Assembly (NCBI GenBank): GCA_002238645.1
Contig: MPMT01000010.1
Span: 1-64,000 of the forward strand
Length of the DNA stretch: 64,000 nucleotides
Direction: 5' to 3'
From: Alphaproteobacteria bacterium bin52
GTDB taxonomy: Bacteria > Pseudomonadota > Alphaproteobacteria > Thalassobaculales > Thalassobaculaceae
Shown here: positions 54,621 to 61,693 of the stretch, piece by piece
How the letters are laid out: each line of letters starts with the position of its first letter
Numbering within the stretch: position 1 is the stretch's first letter
Position numbers and translations under genes: made by a program
Notes under the pieces: model-generated
The model's database searches: none
The model's input: only the letters and a program-made list of their open reading frames with translations
Told to the model about the DNA's origin: nothing

Positions 54621-57614
<2,994 letters not shown>

Positions 57615-59026: not shown

Positions 59027-60730
59027 ATGACGGGCCAACCGTACGAGGGTGACGCCGGTGTCAGCCGCGCCGCGCTCTACGAGACGGTGGAGGCCGCAGA
59101 CCTCCACTCCTGGCTCGAGCCCTGGCTGCCGGAGGCCCCGGCACTGGTACTCGACGTCGGAGCCGGTTCCGGGCGTGACGCCGCCTGGCTTGCCAACGCC
59201 GGTCACGAGGTCGTCGCCGTCGAGCCGTCGGCGACCATGCTGTCCGAGGCCCGACGGCGGCATCCGCAGTCGACGATCTCCTGGATCCGGGACAGCCTGC
59301 CGGCACTCGAGCGTGTCTACAGGCAGGCATTCGCCTTCGACCTGGTGCTGCTGAGCGCGGTCTGGATGCACGTCCGCCCCGAACACCGACAGCGCGCGTT
59401 CCGCAAGCTGATCGGCCTGCTGAAGCCGGGCGGACGGCTGGCGATCACCTTTCCGCAGGGCACAACCGACCGGGCGCGGGGACAGCATCCCGCACGTGTC
59501 GAGGAGATCGAGAGCCTGGCGCGCCGCCACGGCGCGTTCCTCGCCTTCCAGGACCAGGACGCGGACAGGCTGGGACGGACCGGTCTCGTGTGGGCCCGCC
59601 TCCTGGTGCACCTGCCGGACGACGGCACCGGCGCGCTGCCGCTGCTGCGCCACGTGATCCTGAACGACGCCAAGTCGTCGACCTACAAGCTCGGACTGCT
59701 GCGCGCAATCGCGCGCGCATCCGACGGAGCGCTCGGCATGGCCGCCCCTGCGGACCGTGATGTCAGCATCCCTCTGGGCCTGGTCGCGCTGAACTGGCTG
59801 CGCCTGTACAGGCCGCTTGTCGACGGCGGTTTCCCGCAGCGCCCCAAAAACCGCGGGCCCGACGGTCTCGGCTTCGCCGGGAAGGGGTGGCGCCGGATCG
59901 GTGACCTGAACCCGCCCGAGCTTCGGGTCGGGGCCCTGCTCTCGGGCAAGCGTGCCGCCGGACTGCACCAGGCGCTCGCAGAGGTGGCGAGAACCATCGC
60001 CCGGATGCCTGCCACCCACACCACCTGGCCCGGTTCCGCCGACCCCATCTTCCGGGCCGTACCATCGGCCGCCGGTCGACCGCCGTCCCGGATCCTGATC
60101 GACCGGGACTATCTTGCGCGGTTCGGGGAACTCCGGGTCCCGCTGCACCTGTGGCGCGCGCTGTCGCGGTACAGCTGCTGGATCGAACCGGCGGTCACGG
60201 CGGAATGGATCCGGCTGATGGACGGCTATGCCGTGGGGCAGAAGCGGTCGCTCGACCGCGCGGATCTCGCCCGGGCCATGACGTGGTCGGAGCCGTCACG
60301 CGACGTGCACGCGTCGCGTTCCCGGGCGCTCGAACTCGCCGGGCAGGGAGCGCTCTACTGCGTGTGGTCCGGACGGCGCCTGCGCGAGGCGAGCTTCGAC
60401 ATCGACCACTGCATCCCGTGGGCGGCGTGGCCCTGCGACGACCTGTGGAACCTGCTGCCGAGCGCCTCGGCCGTCAACCAGCAGAAACGCGACCGGCTGC
60501 CCTCGGCAGGCGCGCTTGCCGCCTCGCGGGAGCGCATTCTCGACTGGTGGGAGAGTGCCTATGTCCGCCGTGAGGAGATGAAGGAGCGGTTCTTCATCGA
60601 GGCCCGATCGTCGCTGCCGCTGTTCGACGAGCCGGAGGCGAAGGTCGAGGTGCTGTTCGACGGGCTCGGTGCCCGGCGCCAGTCCCTGGTCACCGACCAG
60701 CGCGTGGACGAGTGGGCGCCGAGGACCTGA
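59027..60730 (+). CDS. SAM methyltransferase-HNH nuclease fusion protein
   Basis: A 567-residue two-part protein. Residues ~20-150 form a class I methyltransferase with the SAM loop VLDVGAGSGRDAAWLA (41-56), the acidic EPS at 66-68 and LLKPGGRLAITF. After a middle domain (~190-430, including DYLARFGELRVPLHLWRALS, typical of a known HNH-protein family) comes an HNH nuclease: Cys445, DIDH at 458-461, Asn475 and NQQKRDR from 484. A strong GGAGG precedes the start at 59027. It stands alone between a decarboxylase and a broken sulfurtransferase. Function is unknown; nucleic-acid modification/cleavage or defence is an inference. Confidence 0.85.
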   Translation: MTGQPYEGDAGVSRAALYETVEAADLHSWLEPWLPEAPALVLDVGAGSGRDAAWLANAGHEVVAVEPSATMLSEARRRHPQSTISWIRDSLPALERVYRQAFAFDLVLLSAVWMHVRPEHRQRAFRKLIGLLKPGGRLAITFPQGTTDRARGQHPARVEEIESLARRHGAFLAFQDQDADRLGRTGLVWARLLVHLPDDGTGALPLLRHVILNDAKSSTYKLGLLRAIARASDGALGMAAPADRDVSIPLGLVALNWLRLYRPLVDGGFPQRPKNRGPDGLGFAGKGWRRIGDLNPPELRVGALLSGKRAAGLHQALAEVARTIARMPATHTTWPGSADPIFRAVPSAAGRPPSRILIDRDYLARFGELRVPLHLWRALSRYSCWIEPAVTAEWIRLMDGYAVGQKRSLDRADLARAMTWSEPSRDVHASRSRALELAGQGALYCVWSGRRLREASFDIDHCIPWAAWPCDDLWNLLPSASAVNQQKRDRLPSAGALAASRERILDWWESAYVRREEMKERFFIEARSSLPLFDEPEAKVEVLFDGLGARRQSLVTDQRVDEWAPRT

Positions 60731-60736
60731 GGCCGC

Positions 60737-61637
60737 TTACCCGGTCTCCATCGGCAGGGTGTCGTCGCGCGACCATTCCGACATCGAGTTGTCGTAGAGC
60801 CCCACGTTCTCGTGACCGAGCATGACCAACAGCATCGCGGTCGCGCTCGCCGCAATCCCGCCGCCGCAGTAGGTCAGGACGCGTTCGGCGCTGTCCGCCC
60901 CGATATCCGCGAACCGAGCCGCGATCTGCCCGGCCGGCAGAAAGGCGGTGGTCTCGGGATCAAGCAGTTCCGCGGTCGGCACGTTCACGCTGCCGGCAAT
61001 GCGCCCGACCCGGCCGTAGGCCCGCCCGCCCCGCCCCCCCCCCGCCGGTCCCGGCATGCTGCTCGCGCGCCAGCGCGTTGACCGTGCACACCGTGCCGTT
61101 GCCGACAGCCGACAGCACCTCGTCCCTGCCCACGATCAGGCCCTCCCTGGGACGCGGCGTGAAGATGGCCGGGGAATAGGATGCGGGTTCGGTGGACACA
61201 GCGCGGCCCTCCCGCGCCCACTTGGTGAAACCGCCATCGAGCACCCGGGCCCGGTCGAAGCCGAAGGCCCGCAGCATCCACCAGACACGCGTCGCCCACT
61301 GCGGCGAGGTCGTGCTATAGAGCACCACCGAGGCGTCATCGCCGAGCCCGCGGCGGCCGACCGCATCGGCGAACCGGCCGGCATCGGGAAACGTGAAACG
61401 ATACTGGCTGTCGCTGTCGGAGAGCTCCCCCTGCAGATCCAGAAAATCGGCACCCGGTACATGTCCGCGGTCGTAGTCGGCCCTGCCGCTCTCCACCGTG
61501 TAGGGCAGGGTCGGGTGCGGAAGCAGGTGGGTGGTGCAGTCGTAGAGCCGCAGGTCCGCATCACCGAGACGGGCTTCCAGCTCCGCGGTATCGATCAGGA
61601 AGTCGGGGTGCCGGTAGCCGGCCGCACTGGCGGTCAT
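60737..61637 (-). pseudogene. Thiosulfate/3-mercaptopyruvate sulfurtransferase, frameshifted at a C10 run
   Basis: Two-domain rhodanese-type sulfurtransferase. The N-terminal frame from ATG 61637 reads through LYDCTTHLLPHPTL, GHVPGADFLDLQG and VLYSTTSPQWATRVWWMLRA; the C-terminal part with VGRIAGSVNVPTAELLD and the active Cys in VLTYCGGGIAASATAML is in another frame. The break lies at ten consecutive Cs (61034-61043). The 901-bp span is 3x300+1, so one base fewer gives an intact ~299-residue enzyme. A homopolymer sequencing error or phase-variable tract are the leading explanations. Confidence 0.8.
61034..61043. repeat. C10 homopolymer at the sulfurtransferase frameshift
   Basis: Ten consecutive Cs on the plus strand, next to other C-rich triplets, at the point where the two sulfurtransferase frames meet. 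A single-base length change would restore the frame. Confidence 0.85.
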
Positions 61638-61693
61638 GGACATGCTCCTCGTACTGGCGCCGCACCGGGCGGCCACGGCGGTTACTCTACCTG

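Follow-up and report, generated by a model that had tools for sequence, protein, structure and literature searches.

The gene at positions 59027-60730 on the forward strand of the window, the 64,000-nucleotide stretch of contig MPMT01000010.1 analyzed here, joins a class I methyltransferase, a middle domain and an HNH nuclease in one chain. Its open reading frame, its domain profiles and the conservation of the fusion all identify it as a genuine gene. We consider that the product may be a self-contained, single-protein type IV-like restriction enzyme directed against foreign DNA, from a hitherto unnamed family, belonging to an HNH clan linked to phosphorothioation (PT) and carrying an added methyltransferase; we put the probability of this reading at roughly 0.45. 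If it is true, a widespread, unnamed protein ties SAM-dependent methylation to the HNH nucleases of PT loci in one testable chain.

The frame runs unbroken from an ATG at 59027 to a stop codon at 60730 and encodes 567 amino acids without an internal stop. Three parts can be delimited, all on the forward strand: the methyltransferase domain (amino acids 15-197; 59069-59617), the middle domain (amino acids ~198-421; 59618-60289), which starts near the motifs LPDDGTGALP and SSTYKLxLLRA, and the HNH (beta-beta-alpha-Me) nuclease domain (amino acids 424-560; 60296-60706). AlphaFold2 modeled the whole chain with a pLDDT of 88.7 and the HNH half, middle domain included, with 89.5. A sequence-only reading of this DNA had described a single 567-residue methyltransferase-HNH frame; the frame is real, Pfam places both domains above its curated cut-offs, and the HNH residues singled out in that reading (C445, DIDH at 458-461, N475 and NQQKRDR at 484-490) are all in place.

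The fusion is strongly conserved. Contigs scanned with the HNH half yielded 42 loci, and a methyltransferase was encoded directly upstream in all 40 for which enough contig was present; 37 of these are a single open frame and three contain a frame break (L035, L065 and L069). In nine further plasmid records, the match covered 80% or more of the query. According to record titles, the hosts of the fusion are Alpha-, Beta- and Gammaproteobacteria, Nitrospirota/Leptospirillum, Rhodothermota and Bacteroidota, at least four phyla. The sequence-only reading had allowed that homologues might always be split, or that a sequencing error had joined two genes. Homologues are instead overwhelmingly fused, and because the same fusion is conserved at 40 loci, in independent assemblies and on closed plasmids, an artefact of two genes run together by a sequencing error is ruled out, with a residual probability that we regard as negligible. 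Comparison of the window gene with a same-genus relative gave omega values of 0.20 for the methyltransferase, 0.20 for the middle domain and 0.50 for the HNH domain; every part of the protein is under constraint.

The gene also behaves in the accessory, defense-like manner that had been proposed for it: it is patchy, it is found on plasmids, and defense genes occur among its neighbors. A match to the HNH half was present in 18 of 398 genomes of the phylum and in 8 of 192 relatives. Degraded copies were seen in genomes G047 and G418 (debris or frame-shifted), and a C-terminal piece remains in Roseomonas (L091). Orthologues of the genes that flank the window copy are unlinked in other genera. 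The gene tree mixes phyla, with the window gene in a supported set together with Nitrospirota genes and one Nitrospirota gene inside a proteobacterial clade, which suggests transfer between phyla; because bins may hold foreign contigs, transfer is suggested rather than proven.

The N-terminal domain has both the motif I and the Rossmann fold of a class I SAM-dependent methyltransferase. Pfam Methyltransf_25 matched amino acids 41-136 (E 7.7e-17; 62 bits against a cut-off of 27), Methyltransf_11 was matched as well, and the fold matches are SAM methyltransferases, e.g., 3h2b, TehB and CmoM. In the SAM-binding motif I, LDVGAGSGRD (amino acids 42-51; 59150-59179), D43 and G45 are invariant among 33 aligned members of the fusion family, and G47, G49, E66 and D89 of the SAM site are at least 90% conserved. 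The family matches are small-molecule or RNA-type class I methyltransferases, in agreement with the type first assigned. No DNA-methylase family (DPPY/NPPF types) was matched by the protein in Pfam, NCBIfam, PHROGs or PADLOC, and the earlier view that this is no type II restriction-modification layout is borne out. In PADLOC-DB 2.0.0, mad2 matched the methyltransferase part with an E value of 2e-18, which is comparable to generic methyltransferase models, and one mad2 match was found in the control genes, too. Phage phi458 carries a relative of the methyltransferase only, without the HNH half. A methyltransferase-only copy in G015, 52% identical, adjoins an HNH_2 nuclease gene with a helicase close by. 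Separately, a neighborhood that recurs in the same bacterial family (L005-L018) combines a methyltransferase of 33-45% identity with genes for an enoyl-CoA hydratase and an RraA-like protein; these methyltransferases are likely to be metabolic cousins.

At the other end of the chain, HNH_4 matched amino acids 451-492 (E 3.3e-07; 30.6 bits against a cut-off of 22). The core, C445...DIDH 458-461...N475...N484xxK487 (amino acids 445-492; 60359-60502), is intact, and C445, W447, D460, H461, N475, N484 and K487 are invariant across the 33 aligned fusion-family members, so that the catalytic histidine and the metal ligands of an HNH nuclease are present. Structural matches of the domain are Cas9 HNH domains (VIA Z up to 7.6); a PDB profile search also matched Cas9 (E 2.2e-06), and PADLOC-DB 2.0.0 gave a weak Cas9 HNH match for this part. 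In the viral structure library, the matches listed included only weak HNH-domain matches. Cyanobacterial, Deinococcus and Hymenobacter plasmids also encode the HNH half as a stand-alone protein of ~385 amino acids that is 21-24% identical to the window sequence; the small open reading frames 5' of the stand-alone copies are mostly without kinship to one another.

The middle domain may be related to sulfur-binding domains, a resemblance seen in structure only. Its best non-HNH fold match was the sulfur-binding domain of SprMcrA on PT-DNA (7cc9; VIA Z 6.5 over 133 residues, rmsd 3.6) and a second such domain, from ScoMcrA (5zmm), matched with a VIA Z of 5.4; on the tool's own scale, both scores fall where chance matches occur. 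When the fused-family middle domain was compared with an alignment of sulfur-binding domains, profile-profile tests gave no significant match (P 0.16-0.34), nor did a two-segment test, in which 0.12-0.23 of the shuffles were equally good. NF045808 (PT-DNA_restrict) was absent from the NCBIfam matches of the HNH half up to an E value of 1. The sulfur pocket described for ScoMcrA and SprMcrA is formed by H/Y116, R/K117, Y/M164 and P165 in ScoMcrA numbering (PMC6224610, PMC7470945). Conserved Y220-K221 and M327-P328 of the window protein could match these pocket positions in a register that was set by eye and that automatic alignments do not settle.

A link to PT loci comes from relatives of both halves. 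The HNH proteins of G436, an Allochromatium plasmid, a Sinorhizobium replicon and a Hymenobacter plasmid aligned with the fused-family profile over its whole length (hhalign probability 97.9, E 3.5e-13), and on this profile similarity the PT-locus-type proteins are best placed as a third subfamily of the window HNH family; the N-terminal parts of the fused and PT-locus groups, compared alone, gave no significant match (P 0.13). Close relatives of the methyltransferase (model E 1e-52 to 1e-61) belong to the dnd loci of R. phaseoli, G436 and G453 and to phage phi458. In G453, one stretch holds a small methyltransferase (E 3e-53), a 203-aa protein, TIGR04096 (dnd_rel_methyl), a frame-broken HNH relative, DndB, DndC, DndD and DndE. 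G436 has dnd genes, assigned through a DndC match and sequence resemblance to the G453 genes, together with a 381-aa HNH protein and a fusion of a membrane part to the methyltransferase (methyltransferase model E 9e-61). Both halves of the fusion thus recur as separate neighbors in PT loci, since the G436 and G453 loci hold both; methyltransferase and HNH relatives occurred together in two of about five complete dndBCD-type loci examined. On the Hymenobacter plasmid (L210 7971-17056), the Cas9-type HNH protein lies by a cysteine desulfurase, a DUF4007 protein, a large hypothetical protein and a PAPS reductase; we take the set of cysteine desulfurase, DUF4007 protein and PAPS reductase to be an ssp-like PT locus. 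This link and the possible sulfur-binding-like nature of the middle domain are additions to what had been read from the sequence.

In R. phaseoli and G436, the methyltransferase relative carries a membrane-type segment at its N terminus, and phi458 encodes a relative of this segment in the gene just before that of the methyltransferase. At L149 2290-3309, L197 17209-18252 and L086 2336-3519, the same methyltransferase subfamily either shares a chain with a membrane-type segment bearing the motif LNQLMWQIP...GGLW... or is encoded behind it; the segment had no significant Pfam match. The dnd loci at L194 2022-15018 and L197 7154-18252 carry a small class I methyltransferase, a ~200-aa protein of no assigned family, TIGR04096 or a protein of similar size, and a Cas9-type HNH protein, an accessory set that looks undescribed as a set. 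The fusion directs attention to two unstudied dnd-locus parts, the small methyltransferase (sometimes joined to a membrane segment) and the Cas9-like HNH protein; a single purified protein could allow their roles to be addressed directly.

No fused gene was sited in a dnd locus, and for this reason we treat PT dependence as a hypothesis rather than a result. DndC was present in one of 20 fusion-bearing genomes, there on another contig, which is so close to the background of 13 in 329 that co-occurrence is uninformative. The neighborhoods of the fused gene were richer in defense genes. PADLOC models (E 1e-10) matched among the 130 genes flanking 18 copies numbered 38 and 107, compared with 12, mostly promiscuous, among 113 control genes from nearly the same genomes; the sample was modest, genes were called with a simple script, and because one protein can match many models, the counts overstate the contrast. 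Single-gene scans confirmed defense genes at five loci (DdmD/DdmE, PDC-M65, two mREase_IV helicases and a DpdE-like helicase), and the proposed enrichment of such genes near homologues was upheld. At L119 6034-9225 and L120 11132-14269, a PADLOC type IV mREase protein directly adjoins the fusion copy, the L119 neighbor having PLD, helicase and DUF3427 domains by Pfam, and mcrC lies near one plasmid copy. Pooled clustering of the neighbors found no family common to diverse loci except the gene itself and shadow frames, and no system model in PADLOC-DB 2.0.0 was matched as a whole by the window protein.

Taken as a single-protein restriction enzyme, the window protein would cut DNA with its HNH domain, as the intact catalytic core implies. 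The middle domain would bind DNA and probably read a mark on, or the structure of, the backbone, given its fold similarity and its PT-locus relatives; the sulfur-binding domains of PT-dependent HNH enzymes serve as the model for such reading. The N-terminal SAM methyltransferase may control the nuclease or modify a substrate at the same site. The fused enzyme would act on incoming DNA alone and not as the partner of a resident dnd system. Because most fusion hosts are without dndC, it is probably self-sufficient and type IV-like; low dndC presence fits with an enzyme that works without a resident dnd system, and is no proof of it. A methyltransferase that targets the DNA backbone itself, e.g., the PT sulfur or a neighboring phosphate, would make the chain a writer, reader and cutter of a backbone modification, a possibility that we think very improbable.

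Other explanations share some of this evidence. It is rather unlikely, in our estimate, that the protein is an abortive-infection effector in which the methyltransferase senses the SAM level or a phage product and restrains the HNH domain until infection leads to degradation of cell or phage DNA. The SAM site is conserved without a known methylation partner, the system is a single gene with an accessory distribution, and in R. phaseoli, G436 and phi458 a membrane-type segment accompanies the methyltransferase subfamily, either in the same chain or as a companion gene, as if one sensor served several effectors. However, that segment, having no significant Pfam match, is not supported as an effector, and the HNH module needs no control by the methyltransferase because it exists alone. 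The same stand-alone relatives speak against single-chain restriction-modification of a type IIG-like kind, with the methyltransferase protecting host DNA, the HNH domain cutting unprotected DNA and the middle domain setting the target. The presence of a modification and a cleavage domain in the same chain, a central DNA-binding-like part and an HNH domain that is the fastest-evolving part would all suit such an enzyme, but the methyltransferase resembles small-molecule or RNA enzymes and has no DNA-methylase family match, and family member L031 has an intact HNH domain but a partly eroded motif I; we judge this explanation distinctly improbable.

A role outside defense, as a mobile-element or homing-type HNH protein with a passenger methyltransferase whose substrate would be RNA or a small molecule, also seems unlikely. 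The metabolic neighborhood of the methyltransferase cousins and the position of plasmid copies near IS elements could point that way, but the HNH half had no copy in phage records or in the viral contigs of IMG/VR, the fusion has been retained across long divergence, and defense neighbors exceed those of the control. As for what had been inferred from the sequence, the fusion, its difference from type II restriction-modification and its accessory-like character stand, whereas modification of DNA by the methyltransferase and self/non-self discrimination were not established.

No description of a methyltransferase-HNH fusion was found in the literature searched, and no profile library names it. 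The fusion is nonetheless not a new category; it belongs with known HNH restriction nucleases that have a link to DNA modification. Similar in layout are the SBD-HNH PT-dependent restriction enzymes such as SprMcrA and EcoWI (PMC7461809, PMC7470945; NCBIfam NF045808), which place a DNA-reading N-terminal domain before a C-terminal HNH domain, an order proposed for the middle and HNH domains of the window protein too, and include, in the SprMcrA sulfur-binding domain, the best non-HNH fold match of its middle domain. The window protein differs from them in having no significant sequence match, an HNH core of Cas9 type (HNH_4), an extra N-terminal methyltransferase and a middle domain clearly longer than their 163-residue sulfur-binding domain. 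ScoMcrA is an SBD-SRA-HNH protein (PMC6224610); its sulfur-binding domain gave the second such fold match of the middle domain, but it has an SRA domain and no methyltransferase. The HNH proteins of dnd/ssp-like loci ("HNH endonuclease domain-containing protein") are of the same family as the window protein over their whole length, yet they have no fused methyltransferase and some, unlike the fused form, lie beside PT genes. TIGR04096 is, like the relatives of the window methyltransferase, a class I-type methyltransferase of dnd loci, but it is a distinct family, which adjoins the small methyltransferase in G453 and is absent from the matches of the window domain. Type IIG enzymes share a nuclease and a SAM methyltransferase in one chain; the DNA-adenine methyltransferase motifs and target-recognition domain expected of them have no family match in the window protein. 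Cas9 has the HNH_4 core in common with it, whereas RuvC and the guide-RNA parts are missing from the window protein.

The window gene lies between a decarboxylase gene upstream and a sulfurtransferase gene downstream, neither of which is a defense gene. These surroundings had been called unrelated and decayed, which is only partly right: the decarboxylase gene is intact, whereas the sulfurtransferase gene carries a frameshift here and is intact in the same-genus relative. The latter, sulfurtransferase-like gene (60737-61676, reverse strand) is split over two frames; in that relative (L030, about 8034-7111) it occupies one, which points to a frameshift or a sequencing error near 61000. Just 5' of the decarboxylase gene, at 55312-57614, lie tgt and a queG-like gene of the queuosine pathway, which we regard as housekeeping.
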